Source of the DNA: Planctomycetota bacterium
GTDB taxonomy: Bacteria > Planctomycetota > Phycisphaerae > Phycisphaerales > Phycisphaeraceae
Assembly (NCBI GenBank): GCA_016350165.1
Contig: CP066225.1
Coordinates: forward strand, 4,216,001-4,280,000
DNA length: 64,000 bases
Direction of reading: 5' to 3'
Shown here: positions 2,411-24,649 of the stretch, one piece after another
Layout: every line of letters begins with the position of its first letter
Position numbering within the stretch: position 1 is the stretch's first letter
Made by a program: the position numbers and the translations under genes
The notes under the pieces: generated by a model
What the model was told of the DNA's origin: nothing
What the model saw: only the letters and a program-made list of their open reading frames with translations
The model's database searches: none

Positions 2411-2914
2411 TCACCCACCCATCACCGCTATCATTTCACTCGTCTCATCCGGCGCAATCACATACTTACGCTTGTCTGTTTCAATCAAAATAAGATGATC
2501 GCGATTATTACCGTAAAACAAAAAACTCTTCATCGTCGGATTGTAAAACCAACCAAAATATCCAAACAATCCGCCGCAACCAAACGTGCGAATCGTCCTT
2601 CTCATATCCTTCTTTTCCAGCTCACGTATTTCCGAAATCTCATCTCGAGCAATACGCACATCAGCCCCCCATCGACGAATCACCACCTCATTTGCATCAA
2701 CGGTGTAATACCGCGGAGCAAACCACGCGCAAGCACCCAAAAACAGCAAACTGATCAAGAGCGCAATCCCAAAGTAAAGCCACGCATTTCCCGACCCCTC
2801 ATCCAAATGCTTCCACAGCACCAATGCCGGGATACCCAAAACCAGCAACACCACAAATGCCGTAATTCCCTTGGTCAATTTGTCCCATGAACTTCGAAAT
2901 ATCTGCTCTTGCAT
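2411..2914 (-). CDS. Membrane protein with bacterial PH-like domain
   Basis: 167 residues from the ATG at 2914. This start is chosen over an upstream one because GAGG lies about 8 bases before it and the extra 39 residues look non-conserved. Two membrane segments (near residues 16-36 and 44-65) are followed by a soluble C-terminal domain of about 100 residues. That domain begins at APRYYTVDANEVVIRRWGAD and resembles bacterial PH domains (bPH_5/bPH_6 type). Such proteins sit in the inner membrane with the PH domain in the cytoplasm, and their function is generally unknown. A short Gly-rich, aromatic stretch (FGCGGLFGYFGWFYNP) is typical of this subgroup. There is no operon partner, and the flanks hold repeat copies. 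Confidence 0.75.
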   Translation of the reverse strand: MQEQIFRSSWDKLTKGITAFVVLLVLGIPALVLWKHLDEGSGNAWLYFGIALLISLLFLGACAWFAPRYYTVDANEVVIRRWGADVRIARDEISEIRELEKKDMRRTIRTFGCGGLFGYFGWFYNPTMKSFLFYGNNRDHLILIETDKRKYVIAPDETSEMIAVMGG

Positions 2915-12702: not shown

Positions 12703-13063
12703 ACTCTTGCATAGTTTAGCATCGATGTGAAGGGCGTCAAGGGGGAGGGGGGAAAGGTTTTTGGCCGGAAGATGAGATGCTAGAGGGAGGAGGTTGATTG
12801 GGCGTTGTTGTGCGTGGTAACGAGATATGAGTGATGTGTTAGAAAATGAAGATTGACGAGATGCTTGAGGTATCTGCAAAAGTGGGTTTGATTGGTGGCT
12901 ATGTAGGTGAAAGGGTTTTAGCTGTTGATTGTGATTGGTTGTTGTGTTTTTTGTCGCGGGCGAATCCATATCGGTTTAATATATTGATGTGATTTGATGA
13001 AAACGCTATGTGGCTAATGATGGCATCAAGTTATCTGACAACTTATTTTTCCAGGAGCAAAGT
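12703..13063. other. Intergenic region, abrupt change to G-rich plus strand
   Basis: About 360 bases between divergent genes. The plus strand changes from C-rich to G-rich here (GGGGGAGGGGGGAAAGG near 12740). A 90-codon open frame on the minus strand (12697-12969) is very rich in Asn, Gln, Ser and His and has no family look, so it is left out. No RNA gene is recognised. Confidence 0.5.
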
Positions 13064-13723
13064 ATGTGGAAGAACACGTTATTAAAGAATGAGACCGATT
13101 CTGTAGAGTGCCTGATTCTTGCGCCAAGTATTGCGGAATTAATGAATGCATCACAATCAGCAAAACATGCAAGGTTGTGTAGAACCTATGCTGAAGATGA
13201 GATTCTTTATCTATTAGTTGCTATGAACAAGTTAGCTGAGCAAGGAAAGCTTGAGCCGACTTACAGCAGTTACCTGAAATTTGCCATGGATCATTGTCCG
13301 ACAGTCACGGAAGAAACGCTTGTGCCCAACTTTGAGGATGATGAACTTGAAGATGAAACATTGGGGCATATTTTAAAGGTATTTATAGAAGAAATTGAGC
13401 AAAGGGAGCCGGAAGAGGATGGTGAGGTGGTGGGATATGATTACGTTGCCGAAGCCCGGAAGGATTGTTTAGTCGGTTCAATCCCAGTATCTGGTGATGG
13501 GCAAGTTTCGGATCAACAGGCGAAGGCGTTAGATTATGTTGAAGCGAATCAAGAGGATATTTTTGGGGTTTTAAAGTCAAAGATTGTGCTGGCAGCATCG
13601 GAATTTTATGACCTTTCAAATACGGATGATCTGCTAAAGAATATCAGTTGCGTGAATGTAGGGGTTACGAGCAGAAATTATGATGGCATGTCTTACGTGG
13701 AATATTGCTTCATGACCAATTAG
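13064..13723 (+). CDS. Hypothetical protein, paralog A, truncated by an in-frame TAG
   Basis: 219 residues from the ATG at 13064, which has AGGAG 6 bases upstream. From here it aligns without gaps to paralog B (MWKNTLLKN...CLILAPS with MRSETLLEC...CLIHAPS). Both have a GKLEPT motif, an acidic middle and a C-terminal half with QQAKALDYVEANQEDIF, a pattern that resembles DUF6985-type proteins; this is an unproven resemblance. The reading frame is interrupted by TAG at 13721 where B has a conserved Trp, so a TGG to TAG change is the simplest explanation. The in-frame continuation to 13873 still resembles B. An earlier GTG at 13010 is possible but less supported. Confidence 0.65.
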   Translation: MWKNTLLKNETDSVECLILAPSIAELMNASQSAKHARLCRTYAEDEILYLLVAMNKLAEQGKLEPTYSSYLKFAMDHCPTVTEETLVPNFEDDELEDETLGHILKVFIEEIEQREPEEDGEVVGYDYVAEARKDCLVGSIPVSGDGQVSDQQAKALDYVEANQEDIFGVLKSKIVLAASEFYDLSNTDDLLKNISCVNVGVTSRNYDGMSYVEYCFMTN

Positions 13724-13873: not shown

Positions 13874-13911
13874 TCGATTAACTCGAATTGGATAGTAAGG
13901 GGCAATTCAAG

Positions 13912-14661
13912 ATGCGGAGCGAAACACTTTTAGAATGTTCACCAGGTGAAGCCCAGTGTTTGATTCATGCGCCATCGATTGCGGCGTTGGCGATTGCGTC
14001 AAGGACACGAATTGATGATGCAAAGGATAGGGTTTATTCGGAAAATGAATTCTTTCATTTGGTGAGTTGGACATGTGAGTTGGTCAAAGAAGGAAAACTT
14101 GAACCAACCTTCGACAGTATGTTCGGTCATATCACTGAGTATTGCCCAACATTAACGCTTAAGTCAAAGGTGTATGGTTTTTGGAATCCGACACTTGAGA
14201 ATTACATCAAGAAGCTTGCCAAATCATTTGAGAAGAAAAGACGGATAGAAGCAAAAAGAAATAAACGTAGCAAGGGAAGTGTGAAAAAGGAATATGATTG
14301 TGATATTGAAGCTGCGAAAGGTTTAGTGATCGGCCGACTTTTCTTTGAAGGCAATGATGCCCTACAACAGTGCCAAGTTGAGGCGATTGATTATATAGAA
14401 GCCAATGAGGTGATGATATTGGATGCGCTGAAATCGCGGCTTGAGATTTTTGCTTCGGAGACTTATGAGCTTACGGATTTAAGTGATATTTTTGAGAAGG
14501 TGAGTTGCCGCGAAATTGGTATAGATATGAAGCAGGAGGATGGCGTGTCTTTTACAAGCTATTACTTCGATACCAGATGGGATGATTGGAATGATTGGGA
14601 TGAACATATGATCTTAATTGAGATGCACAAACACCGTGTATTGAGTGATTGTTTTTACTAG
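13912..14661 (+). CDS. Hypothetical protein, paralog B
   Basis: 249 residues from the ATG at 13912, with AAGGGG about 10 bases upstream. A TTG at 13888 would add eight residues not shared with A. The N-terminal part (residues 1-80) has CLIHAPSIAALAIASRT and GKLEPTFDSMF. A Lys/Arg-rich linker near 105-130 (KKRRIEAKRNKRSKGSVKK) separates it from the C-terminal half with QCQVEAIDYIEANEVMILDALKSRL. The end is Trp/Asp-rich (DTRWDDWNDWDEHM). It arose by tandem duplication with the gene upstream. There is no membrane segment and the function is unknown. The setting next to a reverse transcriptase suggests accessory DNA. Confidence 0.78.
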   Translation: MRSETLLECSPGEAQCLIHAPSIAALAIASRTRIDDAKDRVYSENEFFHLVSWTCELVKEGKLEPTFDSMFGHITEYCPTLTLKSKVYGFWNPTLENYIKKLAKSFEKKRRIEAKRNKRSKGSVKKEYDCDIEAAKGLVIGRLFFEGNDALQQCQVEAIDYIEANEVMILDALKSRLEIFASETYELTDLSDIFEKVSCREIGIDMKQEDGVSFTSYYFDTRWDDWNDWDEHMILIEMHKHRVLSDCFY

Positions 14662-14746: not shown

Positions 14747-15361
14747 ATGAAAGATGTTTTTGTTGTGACTCATGCGGAGGCGGCGCATCATATTGAAGGG
14801 CTTGTTGGGGGTTGGTATGATTCTGAACTTACTGATCTTGGCAGGGAACAGGCGAGGGCGATGGGGGAGCGGTTAAGTGAGTTAGTAGGCGGGCGGAAGG
14901 TTGTGATTTATTCATCTGATCTGAAGCGGGCTGCGCAGACGGCGGCGATTGTAGCTGAGCGCTTTGAGACTACATATACAGTGTCAAAAAGTTTACGTGA
15001 AGCTAGTTATGGTGTTGCTGAAGGGAAGGAGCAGGCTTGGTTGGATGAGCATTGGGTGAAGACGCCTGAGGATAATCGTTTGGATCATCGGAATGTTGAA
15101 GGTGGTGAGACGTTGCGGGAGTTGAGTGAGCGGGTTTATGGGTTTAGTGGACCTCGGATGTTTGAGTCGCAGGATGAGTTTGTTGTGTTTGTGAGCCACG
15201 GTTTTGCGAGCACGTTTATTATTGCGAACTGGATTGGCCTAAGATTAGAAGATGTATCGCATGTGCATTTTAATTTATCGACAGCGAGCATTACGCAATT
15301 GCATTGGGATGATCACTTTAGAACGCGATCGGTGAAGCGATTGAATGAAGTTGTGCTTTAA
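14747..15361 (+). CDS. Histidine phosphatase-family protein with altered RHG motif
   Basis: 204 residues with the phosphoglycerate-mutase-like fold. The nucleophile His is H9, but the usual RHG/RHGE motif reads THAEA, so the phosphate-clamping arginine is Thr. Other conserved positions are kept: SSDLKRAAQTA near 56-66, REASYG near 84, and the second His at 151 in FVSHGFAST. Family members dephosphorylate small metabolites or proteins. With the Arg missing, the activity may be weak or changed. The stop codon overlaps that of the convergent reverse transcriptase gene by a few bases. The unusual neighbours make a housekeeping mutase role unlikely. Confidence 0.8.
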   Translation: MKDVFVVTHAEAAHHIEGLVGGWYDSELTDLGREQARAMGERLSELVGGRKVVIYSSDLKRAAQTAAIVAERFETTYTVSKSLREASYGVAEGKEQAWLDEHWVKTPEDNRLDHRNVEGGETLRELSERVYGFSGPRMFESQDEFVVFVSHGFASTFIIANWIGLRLEDVSHVHFNLSTASITQLHWDDHFRTRSVKRLNEVVL

Positions 15362-16275
15362 TGTGTTTCGAATTCTGATTGGGTGATGATCATTTGGTGG
15401 TAGGCTTTGAGGGATTGGAGTTGTTGGGGCGAGTGGGTTGTTGGTTTGTTGTTATCGTGGGCGTGTTGGATGGCGCGGATGAGGCGGCGGGTTTCTCTTG
15501 GTAGATTTACTTTTTCATTGACGACGAGGCCGGTGACGCGCTGTTGGCGGTGATTGCGAATGATGCGTTTTTTGCGGTTGTTCAGTTTGTAGCCGAATTG
15601 ATGGAGTAAGTATGCGGCGGCGTTTACGAGGTTGCGAGCTGCTTCTGAATCTTTGGTGTCGAGTGAGAAGGTGATGTCGTCAGCATAACGGGTGTAGATG
15701 GCTTTGTGGTTTTGAGCGAGTGTGGTGAGGGCGGTGTCGAGTTTGTAGTTGAGGAGATTGGAGAGAATAGGGCTGGTGGGTGCGCCTTGGGGGAGATGGT
15801 CGATGTGAGTGGTGATGGAGGTGAGTAGTTGTGCGGAGTCAGCGTCGTAGCCGAGGAAGCGGAAGTAGTGGTTGACGCGCTGGGCTGGTGTGGATTGAAA
15901 GAAGTTGCGGATGTCGAGCTTAATGATCATGGGTGAGTTGGTGTGCGCTTTTGCGTTGGTGACGACGGAGTGATTCTTGCGGAAGCCGACAGCGTTGGGA
16001 TGGACGGCGAGCTTGGTGAGAAGACGCTTGGCGATGGTGCGTTGTAGTTTTTTGAGTTCGGGGTTTGGGGCGGTGATAAGGCGTTTGTGGCCGTTGGATT
16101 TTGGGACGGTGAAGGTGTGGTAGTCGAGCGGAATAAGCTTTATTTGTCGGTGTGAAATGTCGAGGCGATGCTCGAGGTCGAGGAGGTTGAATCGTGCGGG
16201 GGTCGTGGGGGTTTGGTGTTGGGGCTCGGATGAGTTGGATGAAAAGAGTGATTTGAGTTTGTTGAAGATGCCCAT
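15358..16275 (-). CDS. Retron-type RNA-directed DNA polymerase (reverse transcriptase)
   Basis: 305 residues. Reverse-transcriptase motifs appear in order: VPKSNGHKRLITAPNPELK (residues 58-76, RT0/1), GFRKNHSVVTNAKAH (97-111, including the retron-typical NAxxH), KLDIRNFFQS (119-128, catalytic Asp), LPQGAPTSP (161-169), YTRYADD (194-200, catalytic Asp pair) and VTGLVVNE (247-254, retron-type VTG). There is no maturase, protease or effector domain, and the size is that of a stand-alone retron RT. The ATG at 16275 has GGGAG 7 bases upstream. A 106-nt multi-stem RNA is predicted just upstream on the same strand and is a candidate msr-msd. No standard retron effector is recognised next door. Retrons are anti-phage systems; a defence role here is inference. 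Confidence 0.88.
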   Translation of the reverse strand: MGIFNKLKSLFSSNSSEPQHQTPTTPARFNLLDLEHRLDISHRQIKLIPLDYHTFTVPKSNGHKRLITAPNPELKKLQRTIAKRLLTKLAVHPNAVGFRKNHSVVTNAKAHTNSPMIIKLDIRNFFQSTPAQRVNHYFRFLGYDADSAQLLTSITTHIDHLPQGAPTSPILSNLLNYKLDTALTTLAQNHKAIYTRYADDITFSLDTKDSEAARNLVNAAAYLLHQFGYKLNNRKKRIIRNHRQQRVTGLVVNEKVNLPRETRRLIRAIQHAHDNNKPTTHSPQQLQSLKAYHQMIITQSEFETH

Positions 16276-16298
16276 GGTTGACTCCCGAAAGTGAGTTG

Positions 16299-16342
16299 GA
16301 AGTAAAAATAAAGATGCAGGGTTGTTGCACCTGCATCTTTAT
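16299..16342 (-). terminator. Terminator-like hairpin before the reverse transcriptase gene
   Basis: A perfect 13-bp stem, ATAAAGATGCAGG with CCTGCATCTTTAT (16308-16320 and 16330-16342), has a 9-base loop and is followed on the minus strand by TTTTTAC. It could end ftsI-operon transcripts, or be the msd hairpin of a retron RNA. Confidence 0.6.
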
Positions 16343-16448
16343 ACCTTGCTCCAGAGTGCGACTCTGGACACTAATTTTGAGGTGCCGAATTGGAACCTGG
16401 CTGACGAAACATCAGCTCTTTAGCTCTGCATTTGAGCTACACCAAGGT
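16343..16448 (-). ncRNA. Candidate structured RNA (retron msr-like or tRNA-like)
   Basis: On the minus strand, ACCTTG (16448-16443) pairs with CAAGGT (16348-16343), closing a 106-nt segment. Inside are AGCTC-7-GAGCT, GCTGA-TGTTTCG-TCAGC, an AGGT/ACCT pair and CCAGAGT-CGC-ACTCTGG. The start, GGTGTAGCTCAAATGCAGAGC, mimics a tRNA D-arm and GGTTCCAAT mimics a T-arm. However, the spacing is wrong for a tRNA and position 33 of the anticodon-like loop is not U. A TAGC lies just after the closing stem, as in retron msr regions. No long msd stem is seen within the closed part. Confidence 0.45.
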
Positions 16449-16490
16449 GAATGCAATATAGCGTAAGTTGTTGTGAAGGGGAAGAGTGAT

Positions 16491-18449
16491 TTAGTTTTTG
16501 TCTGCGGGCCAACCCTCTTCGGCTTTGTAATCTTCGTCGGTGACTTTGGGTGGGACGCCTAGATATTGAAGTGCTTTTTCCATGACTTCTCGTACGGCTG
16601 GTGCTGAGACGGTGCCGCCGTAGTGGGCTACTTTTTTGTTTGGGTCTTTAACGAAGCAGCCAATGACGAGTTTGGGTTCGTCGACTGGGGCGCCTGCGAC
16701 GAATGAACTCATGTAGCGGTCTTGGAAGTAACCTTTGCCGGGGTTGACGAGTTGTGCGGTACCAGTTTTGCCGAAGAAGTCGTATTTCTTGGAGATTGCG
16801 CGTTTGCCGCCACCTTCTTGGACTTGGCGATGCATGGTTTCACGCGTGAATTGAGCGACGGCTGTTGTGAGTACACGTTGTTCAGTATAGAGGCCTGAGT
16901 ATTGGTCACGCAGTTCGATGGTGGGTGTGACTTTGACGCCGTCATTTGCGATGGCTGAGATAGCGGTGATCATTTGTAAAGCGGTGACACCGATTTCCTG
17001 GCCGAAGGAGAGTGAGTGCTTGGAGTAGTTTTTGTTCCAGCCGCTTGGTTTGTAGAGAAGGCCGGGGATCTCGCCGGGGAGTTTGCTGTTGGTGGATTTG
17101 CCGAAGCCGAAGGTGGTGAGGATCTCGTACATCTGTTGATTGGTGATGCGGTTTGAGGCTTGGCTCATGCCGATGTTTGAGGAGTAGATGAGTACTTCTG
17201 GCCAAGTGTATTTATCTTTGCCATGTGTTGTGGCGTCGCGAATAAGGCGGCCGTAGGGTGTGGTCCATCTGCCTTGTTTACTTGAGAATGATTCGCCAGC
17301 TTTGACTTTGCCGAGTTGTGTGATGCCGGACCAGATGATGGGTTTCATGATAGAGCCGGGCTCAAAAAGGTCTGTAACGCAGCGGTTTTTTTGCAGTTCT
17401 TGTTTTGCGGTACGGAATTCACGAGGATCGAAGCCGGGGTTGGTGGCCATGGCGAGAATCTCGCCGGTGTGTGGGTCCATAACGATCATCATGGCATACT
17501 GCGGTGTGTATTTTTTCATAAGTCGATCGAGAACATCTTCAGCCATTTCCTGGATGAATGTATCGATCGAGAGAGCGATGTTTTCGCCGTTTTCGTTGGG
17601 TTGGTATTTCGCTTGATCAACACCAAGAGCGCGGCCACGTGCGTCACGTGAATAAACGAACTGGCCTTTCTCAGCGGTGAGACGTTTATCGTAAGTGAGT
17701 TCAAGACCTGAAAGTCCAACACCTTCATCACCAACGAAGCCGATGAGTTGACCGGCGGTTGAGCCTTGCGGGTACTCACGAATGATTGTGTCATCAAGCG
17801 CAAGGCCTGGGAGTTTGAGTTTCTTATATATCTCAAGACGTTCATCGGTGAGTGCTTTGTCTATAACGATGTAACGACTCTTGGGGCTTTGGCTCATCTT
17901 TTTTTCAATCCAGAGCGGATCATAGTTGAAGTAATGAGCGATGGTGTCAGAGAAGATGCCACGATCTTCGATGAGCTTAGGGTCGATGAAGAGTTTTTTC
18001 TTTACGCGGCTGACTGCGAGTGGCCGGCCTTGTCTGTCTGTGATCATGCCACGACGCCCAAGAAGATTGACCTTGGAGTGGTAGCGATTCATGCGTTGCT
18101 GGAGTTGCTCTTCGGGTTGTGTCTGAAGTTGAACGACTCTACCTAGCATTGTGAGGAAGAGGATCGTGATGCAGCCAGCCATGATTGAACCGATGAGCAG
18201 GACACGGTTTGCGCCTTGGGTTTCATCACCTTTTTCACCAGCCTTCATCATCTTTGGTGCACCGACATGTGACATACCTTTGCCAGCACCGCCGCGCATT
18301 GTGAAAAGACCACCTTCGCCTAGTGCAGCATTGGGGTTTTGCTCTTCTTTGTCTTCCTGTAGTTCCCCCTCGTCCGCAGAATTGTCCAAGCGGCAATCAT
18401 TCTCTTCCTTTGAAGAGTCATCTAAATGATCGAACAAACCGTCTTGCAT
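16491..18449 (-). CDS. ftsI: Penicillin-binding protein, FtsI-type septal transpeptidase
   Basis: 652 residues. A Gly/Asp-rich cytoplasmic N-terminus of about 80 residues precedes one membrane anchor (residues 81-105). The PBP dimerisation domain follows, from RRGMITDRQGRPLAVS. The transpeptidase domain has SxxK at S366-K369 (EPGSIMKP), SxN at S423-N425 (YSSNIG) and KTG at 561-563 (FGKTGTAQ). It cross-links peptidoglycan at the division septum. It ends the minus-strand block rsmH, LysM, small peptide, FtsL-like, ftsI, the expected dcw order. The long acidic N-terminal tail is unusual. Presence of ftsI argues that this lineage divides with peptidoglycan, unlike many Planctomycetes that lack ftsI. 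Confidence 0.93.
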   Translation of the reverse strand: MQDGLFDHLDDSSKEENDCRLDNSADEGELQEDKEEQNPNAALGEGGLFTMRGGAGKGMSHVGAPKMMKAGEKGDETQGANRVLLIGSIMAGCITILFLTMLGRVVQLQTQPEEQLQQRMNRYHSKVNLLGRRGMITDRQGRPLAVSRVKKKLFIDPKLIEDRGIFSDTIAHYFNYDPLWIEKKMSQSPKSRYIVIDKALTDERLEIYKKLKLPGLALDDTIIREYPQGSTAGQLIGFVGDEGVGLSGLELTYDKRLTAEKGQFVYSRDARGRALGVDQAKYQPNENGENIALSIDTFIQEMAEDVLDRLMKKYTPQYAMMIVMDPHTGEILAMATNPGFDPREFRTAKQELQKNRCVTDLFEPGSIMKPIIWSGITQLGKVKAGESFSSKQGRWTTPYGRLIRDATTHGKDKYTWPEVLIYSSNIGMSQASNRITNQQMYEILTTFGFGKSTNSKLPGEIPGLLYKPSGWNKNYSKHSLSFGQEIGVTALQMITAISAIANDGVKVTPTIELRDQYSGLYTEQRVLTTAVAQFTRETMHRQVQEGGGKRAISKKYDFFGKTGTAQLVNPGKGYFQDRYMSSFVAGAPVDEPKLVIGCFVKDPNKKVAHYGGTVSAPAVREVMEKALQYLGVPPKVTDEDYKAEEGWPADKN

Positions 18450-24392: not shown

Positions 24393-24559
24393 CCTTACCA
24401 CTGTCACATCAGACCCGTACCGACACTTAATTGCTTCCGGATCACTTGCTGAGCCGATATTCATTATCCACACCATCCTCACTACCCAACTCAAGCCCTC
24501 TAATAGGTTTGAATCACCTCAGCTTTCAGCTACAATGCCTCCTCACAATTCAAAATCAT

Positions 24560-24643
24560 GCCCGTGTGGCGGAATTGGCAGACGCGCCGTCTTCAGGTGG
24601 CGGTCCCGGCAACGGGGTAGAGGTTCGAGTCCTCTCACGGGCA
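24560..24643 (+). tRNA. tRNA-Leu (anticodon CAG)
   Basis: 84 nt. The acceptor GCCCGTG pairs with CACGGGC, with discriminator A. The anticodon stem CCGTC/GGCGG holds the loop TTCAGGT, giving CAG. A long variable arm typical of tRNA-Leu and the T-loop GGTTCGAGTCC follow. CCA is not encoded. A terminator lies 7 bases after. Confidence 0.95.
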
Positions 24644-24649
24644 TTCCAT

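Follow-up and report, generated by a model that had tools for sequence, protein, structure and literature searches.

The DNA analyzed here, a stretch of 64,000 nucleotides from a Planctomycetota bacterium (the window), raises the question of what a multi-branched RNA does upstream of a reverse transcriptase (RT) gene. An earlier note, made from the letters of the sequence, had offered three answers: that it is a retron msr-msd of a new kind, that it is a degenerate tRNA serving as an integration site, or that it is an independent small RNA. The first of these is strongly supported by covariation, by the coupling of the RNA to the RT and by a layout like that of the retron Ec86. We consider it highly probable that this 106-nt RNA serves as msr-msd in an untyped retron, with the downstream RT as its partner, because matches to a covariance model of the RNA sit upstream of retron-like RTs and include the Ec86 msr-msd. 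The lineage very probably consists of this RNA and a retron-type RT without a recognizable effector gene. "Untyped" is meant relative to the PADLOC models; a published type classification or census may already include the lineage.

The RNA in the window has a compact, branched fold on the minus strand. Four stems lie inside a 6-bp closing helix over 106 nt (16343-16448), the helix being formed by ACCTTG (16448-16443, arm a1) and CAAGGT (16348-16343, arm a2). A perfect 13-bp hairpin (16342-16308) follows directly after the closing helix and leads into a short T run. The closing helix, the four stems, and the hairpin had been named in the earlier note and are present where it had placed them, and the fold is better than that of shuffled sequence: the energy of the 158-nt segment has a z-score of -6.4, equaled by none of 200 shuffles, and that of the 108-nt core a z-score of -3.8, equaled by one of 200. 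The first base after a1, G16442, is the candidate priming guanosine. It is followed by msr stem 1 (16421-16439, loop AAATGCA), which both fold and covariation support, and by msr stem 2 (16400-16416), a stem with a UUU triloop (GCTGATGTTTCGTCAGC). Stem 3 (16380-16398) is predicted in the window; it is absent from the family consensus structure given by RNAalifold, which counts against the msr-msd reading. On the Ec86 layout, the template (msd) would occupy 16349-16379, about 31 nt if copying ends at stem 3, with G16349 as the predicted first templated base; it contains the msd hairpin TCCAGAGT-CGC-ACTCTGGA (16350-16368). Kissing between the AAATGCA loop and the msd loop was considered and dropped: by eye there are at most three pairs, without matching changes.

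Homologues of the RNA were gathered through related RTs. Searched with the RT, the window's own genome and 60 kin gave matches in 16 of the 61. Among the seven best RT matches outside the window's own genome (L003-L009), an RNA built on the same plan precedes the RT in L004-L008, and the RNAs of L009 and L003 were added by inspection and then confirmed by the covariance model. An RT profile search of contigs contributed the best 80 of at least 583 relatives, and a further one, of 397 genomes of the class, found 40 with an RT at E ≤1e-40. An earlier regular-expression scan had picked 42 segments in 42 loci, two of them chance-like (L065 and L082); it was replaced by the covariance model, R1, which was built from the RNA alone, with no RT information. 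Among 87 loci, R1 gave 21 matches at E <1e-5, the next best match lying at 0.09, and 28 of 32 further sources matched as well, the misses being L114, L126, L128, and L131. The resulting set of 64 loci, used below, includes the window and leaves out repeats of one contig.

The paired bases of the RNA change together across homologues. The covariance check that the earlier note had proposed gave strong compensatory changes in two alignments. The first is a MAFFT alignment of 25 hand-picked RNAs (A3), mostly of the short-hairpin kind, for which RNAalifold predicts 24 pairs, 18 of them with changes on both sides. Its cells are paired in 97.3% of cases, versus 80.7% in shuffles and 30-44% when the structure is slid, and 121 cells are double-changed, versus 33 in shuffles and at most 23 when slid. 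The second (A5) holds 66 matches aligned by the covariance model and thus leans to the structure; 96.4% of its cells are paired, and 304 are double-changed versus 82 in shuffles and 17-44 when slid. Within A5, two-sided changes occur at six of the seven pairs of the a1/a2 helix and at all four modeled pairs of the msd hairpin, and 99.4% of the cells of stem 2 are paired. The candidate priming base is G in 66/66 rows, and the base before a2 is G in 65/66. The msd hairpin varies in length and sequence; a1, a2, and stem 2 are kept.

The lineage of RNA plus RT lives mainly in Planctomycetota. Of 21 named contigs matched by R1, 18 are titled Planctomycetota or groups assigned there, some of them counted through groups that we take to be members of the phylum; the other three are titled Hydrogenedentota (L027), Methylomirabilis (L029), and Acidobacteriota (L045). 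Plasmids and phages yielded 12 and 24 records with related RTs, respectively, all below 60% identity. At gathering scores, Rfam has no known family at the RNA in the window, nor any at seven loci scanned (the window's, three relatives, and three Chitinophaga retron loci).

RNA and RT travel together. R1, applied to 392 Planctomycetota genomes, found 27 matches in 25 of them, and an RT open reading frame (ORF) lay downstream on the same strand at 27/27 of these loci, amounting to 25 distinct RTs. Twenty of the 25 R1-positive genomes were absent from the RT hit lists of the 61-genome and 397-genome searches, one of these 20 (G501) apparently being the same as contig L036, which was already in the RT profile search. 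A second sample of 395 phylum genomes of at least 95% completeness gave an R1 match in 26; this sample overlaps the first, and its loci were partly inspected. A quickly built tree of 126 RTs, 61 of them RNA-bearing, explains that label with three changes, versus a mean of 42 in shuffles. The RT counts (61) omit L112, L122, and L133, which the motif filter missed; each has an RT, that of L133 cut by the contig end. Four RTs that branch within the RNA-bearing clade or at its base lack an R1 match (L114, for which about 195 nt upstream of the RT start were covered, L054, L068, and L100), and this counts against the msr-msd reading. A good R1 match is also lacking at L126 (an RT fragment), L128, and L131. 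The last two have related RTs with an MGLL-type N-terminus and a different upstream RNA, whose end repeats are, by eye, longer in L128.

Some loci carry two RNAs for a single RT. Tandem msr-msd pairs occur in L008 (1077-1190 and 1243-1353) and L140 (1312-1404 and 1501-1622), and the copies in L008 differ in their msd hairpins. This suggests that a single RT may be able to serve two templates. Tandem RNA copies next to one RT are also found in G041 and G531, where we count them in favor of the retron reading.

The RT itself is of the retron type. The 305-aa protein (15358-16275, minus strand; PF00078, RVT_1) has retron RTs as its best PADLOC models, led by RT_XIII at 270.5 bits. Its best NCBIfam models are likewise retron RTs, with scores that fall short of the curated cut-offs (at best 218.6 bits where 235 are needed), and the group II and DRT models of NCBIfam score below the retron ones. 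A profile of the clade searched against PDB places the Ec86 RT first (E 1.6e-52), and an AlphaFold model of the RT (pLDDT 93.2) has the same protein as its top Foldseek match (E 2.4e-23). Retron RT motifs, as given in excerpts of one source, are NAXXH, VTG, and YADD (PMC6868368). The corresponding residues N107, A108, H111, V247-T248-G249, and Y197-A198-D199-D200 are invariant in 8/8 RTs. In a 57-row RT alignment (A4), which omits L137, L154, L156, and L157 for odd or cut starts, YADD, A108, H111, and G249 are invariant, and N107, V247, and T248 are conserved in less than 90% of rows. Elsewhere in this genome, at G000:C1:4727556-4728332 (L018), is another retron-type RT; it is joined to a TIR domain and scores 503.5 bits with PADLOC RT-TIR_XII.

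The RNA family can be aligned with the msr-msd of Ec86. R1 was run on 80 RT loci from viral contigs, the best of 431 relatives, and gave 11 weak matches (E 0.03-0.34), about four distinct sequences by score; no viral match was better than E 0.031, and 11/11 lay just upstream of an RT on the same strand. One of these loci (L197) encodes an RT whose alignment with the solved Ec86 RT shows no difference in 320 residues, and its msr-msd is among the weak matches, at E 0.037 in the search of 80 loci and 0.0023 when four loci only are searched. On score alone the match is weak, since its E-value is 0.037, and this counts against the retron reading. In the alignment, a1 and a2 of R1 fall on the Ec86 inverted repeats, the invariant G falls on the guanosine within the AGC after the Ec86 repeat, and stem 2 falls on the Ec86 stem tipped UGUUUCG. 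Weak matches elsewhere are mixed in placement. In the 87-locus search, seven of nine, including those of three Chitinophaga loci, are on the strand of an RT and no more than about 350 nt upstream of it, and two are not; in the 32-source search one of four lies directly upstream of an RT, and three do not. The two and the three count against the retron reading.

Several features expected of a retron RNA are found here. The passages of PMC8989520 that we draw on describe retron RNAs as enclosed by inverted repeats a1 and a2, with a conserved adjacent guanosine that primes synthesis. The window lineage has a structured RNA enclosed by a1 and a2 beside the RT, and the conserved G adjoins the inverted repeat in 66/66 rows. 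Known retrons, in the part of PMC6868368 that treats them, have the priming G inside a conserved AGC. In place of AGC, the 66 rows here have GGY, the base after GG being mostly C (33) or T (29), and this counts against the retron reading. An excerpt of the same source reports that a fragment from the C-terminus of the Ec86 RT binds an msr stem of 8 bp whose loop is UUU (PMC6868368). By analogy, stem 2 is the probable RT-binding stem, since it too ends in a UUU triloop.

The RNA appears to have its own promoter and terminator. Just upstream of it in the window lie a -10-like TATATT (16455-16460, minus strand) and a weak -35-like TTCCCC (16478-16483), with a score of 8. Across the 64 loci, the best sigma70-like site ends a median of 9 nt before a1 (10-90% range, 6-10), its mean score is 8.16 versus 6.48 in shuffles, and 29/64 loci score at least 9 of 12. 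The 13-bp hairpin and T run (16304-16342, minus strand) form a terminator-like element between RNA and RT. A hairpin of at least 9 bp stands after a2 in 51/64 loci, the window included, compared with 19% of shuffles and 5.6% of 251 controls; T-rich sequence follows 22 of these 51. In one locus (L122), the RNA (2450-2560, plus strand) has its own promoter-like and terminator-like signals and the RT is on the minus strand, a layout that is possibly a misassembly because the contig is only 3.3 kb long. These signals and the L122 layout favor the independent small RNA proposed in the earlier note; its association with the RT speaks against independence.

We propose a pathway of five steps, in which the RNA acts as a retron msr-msd. 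Judging from the anatomy of the locus, a short RNA would be made from its own promoter and would in most cases stop at the 13-bp hairpin, while some transcripts would read through into the RT. Arms a1 and a2 would then pair, and the RT would bind the msr, probably via stem 2 with its UUU loop, as reported for Ec86. Priming on the 2'-OH of G16442, the RT would start copying at G16349 and proceed backwards along the msd, through the hairpin, yielding a short msDNA of roughly 30 nt. The RT-msDNA complex may be held at the membrane by the N-terminal helix of the RT or, in relatives, by transmembrane segments. Since no shared neighboring gene was found, the RT-RNA-DNA complex may itself do the sensing and provide the output, or these may fall to a small gene of less than 90 aa or to unlinked genes. 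The likeliest role would be anti-phage defense, by analogy with the retron family.

No neighboring gene is widely shared among the loci compared. Among ORFs of at least 90 aa around the 64 loci, only the RT and frames overlapping it are widely common, and the next two ORF families occur in three loci each; no linked or fused effector was found in this comparison. Flanks of up to 6 kb were compared in about one-third of loci and of about 1.5 kb in the rest, and small or distant genes fall outside the comparison because of the 90-aa limit and these flank lengths. In the window, a histidine phosphatase gene is convergent after the RT and a transpeptidase gene lies before it. A genome of the same genus (G001) keeps the transpeptidase gene, without an RT or R1 match beside it, has its relative of the phosphatase elsewhere, and has no R1 match anywhere. 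Two tandem genes in the window (13010-13723 and 13888-14661, plus strand), 34% identical over 223 positions, represent a duplicated unknown family. Their proteins were considered as effectors and rejected: Pfam, PADLOC, and NCBIfam give no match for them, and they belong to no family present in at least three of the 64 loci.

The N-terminus of the RT often looks membrane-directed. In the window, it begins MGIFNKLKSLF and is predicted to form a short amphipathic helix (MGIFNKLKSLFSSNSS; 16228-16275, minus strand; AlphaFold helix 3-11, hydrophobic moment 0.60), modeled at a low pLDDT of 50-56. Leaving the window RT out, transmembrane-like N-termini occur in 21/60 RNA-bearing RTs versus 2/65 other RTs. 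When 61 RNA-bearing RTs are classed, 22 are transmembrane-like, 24 amphipathic by hydrophobic moment, and 15 neither, an assignment that rests on analyst-chosen start codons; many of the 15 begin MGLF-like by eye. A start-anchored xG[LFIWM] pattern was rejected as a family marker: it is present in 32/61 RNA-bearing RTs, but discriminates poorly because 20/65 other RTs also carry it, whereas the transmembrane score does discriminate. RNA length differs weakly with transmembrane type (p 0.035, kinship ignored). As far as the sequence can tell, the lineage would be a two-part retron, perhaps membrane-held.

Where the output of the retron lies can be explained in two ways. It is quite possible that the effector is unlinked or encoded by a small, missed gene and that the N-terminal segment of the RT only positions the complex. 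The reach of our ORF comparison (at least 90 aa, about 1.5 kb on each side in about two-thirds of loci) leaves room for such a gene, and N-termini that vary between a helix, one, and two transmembrane segments suit an anchor better than a toxin; most retron effectors are, in the portions of the literature consulted, linked or fused, which stands against it. More doubtful is the idea of a membrane effector built into the RT. Its amphipathic or transmembrane N-terminal segment would then be silenced by the RT-msDNA complex, and phage attack on the msDNA or on that complex would free it to damage the membrane, without a separate toxin gene.

A rival reading, which we hold very unlikely, makes the RNA a cis-acting leader or attenuator in the RT mRNA, to which the RT binds for self-control and which is not copied into DNA. 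Such a leader would lie on the strand of the RT, as the RNA does in 27/27 loci, and a terminator-like hairpin between RNA and RT, shared in position by 51/64 loci, also fits an attenuator and to that extent counts against the msr-msd reading. However, the layout and the invariant G match a retron msr-msd, the msd hairpin varies and a1, a2, and stem 2 are retained, the pattern that a template would show, and the RNA occurs in tandem copies. L122, where the RNA runs opposite to the RT with its own signals, also argues against a leader, with the possible misassembly of that 3.3-kb contig in mind.

That the locus is a decayed tRNA gene or a tRNA-like integration site is almost certainly wrong: stems 1 and 3 of the window do recall D- and T-arms, as which the earlier note had read them, but this likeness is not kept in homologues, where the stems covary away from the tRNA consensus by compensation, and the site beside the G001 transpeptidase gene has no RT, R1 match, or tRNA. 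The earlier note's prediction that tRNA models would reject the RNA was borne out. Neither ARAGORN nor Rfam at gathering scores calls a tRNA at its position in the window, a permissive Rfam scan of 15300-16700 (E up to 10) gave three matches, none of them a tRNA, and ARAGORN found 0 tRNAs in 64 RNA stretches, the window included. On these sequences, the tRNA look is coincidence, because there are no tRNA calls among the 64. Elsewhere in the window, ARAGORN calls a tRNA-Leu (CAG) at 24559-24644 (plus strand), which is absent from the Rfam matches at gathering scores.

The retron reading makes the lineage useful in two respects. It would let one test whether an RT-msDNA complex acts alone, and it supplies many small natural templates of known structure. 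What sets it apart is that only RNA and RT are found, that the template RNAs are compact, and that the RT N-termini are often of membrane type. At the level of titles and the opening parts of abstracts, we found no description of the lineage under Planctomycetota, membrane-type, or lone-RT retrons. Planctomycetota retrons are not described in the excerpts found, where the search word occurs only in the title of a reference or in a list of phyla.

Known retrons have been sorted into 13 types on the basis of their effectors and operon structure, a scheme that leaves some lone RTs unassigned (PMC12548924, in excerpt). By most accounts they have three parts, the effector being linked or fused, with known exceptions that lack a clear neighbor. 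Types XII (RT-TIR) and XI (RT-protease) were rejected for the window RT, which has 305 aa and RVT_1 only; those models match its RT part only. Type XIII (PADLOC RT_XIII) is its top PADLOC model, and R1 has weak matches upstream of the RT in Chitinophaga loci. Membership was nevertheless rejected: the window RT matches the core only (144-404 of 469 model positions, 270.5 bits), whereas the Chitinophaga RT of L087 scores 644.7 bits over 4-434.

Two described retrons share single traits with the lineage. Retron Eco6 (Ec48) has, in excerpts of two sources, a two-transmembrane accessory protein said to compromise membrane integrity (PMC8989520, PMC12405507). Likened by description only, both tie membrane segments to a retron, but the Eco6 protein is a separate accessory and the segments here are at the RT's own N-terminus. 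Retron-Bth1 is presented, in the text available from one source, as a lone RT without an apparent effector gene that makes RT-DNA, lies outside the chromosome, and contains an interrupting group II intron (PMC12548924). Again by description only, it shares with our lineage the absence of an apparent effector gene and differs in its extrachromosomal location and group II intron.

The closest likeness is to Ec86 (Eco1), a type II-A retron. Both have the order a1, G, stem, UUU-loop stem, linker, msd, a2 upstream of the RT, and the Ec86 RT is the best match by profile and by fold. The Ec86 locus has a 326-aa ORF upstream, whereas the window lineage is without such an ORF. Compared with Ec86, the window lineage has a shorter msd and GGY instead of AGC, and it adds an N-terminal membrane-type segment to the RT and a terminator-like hairpin before it.
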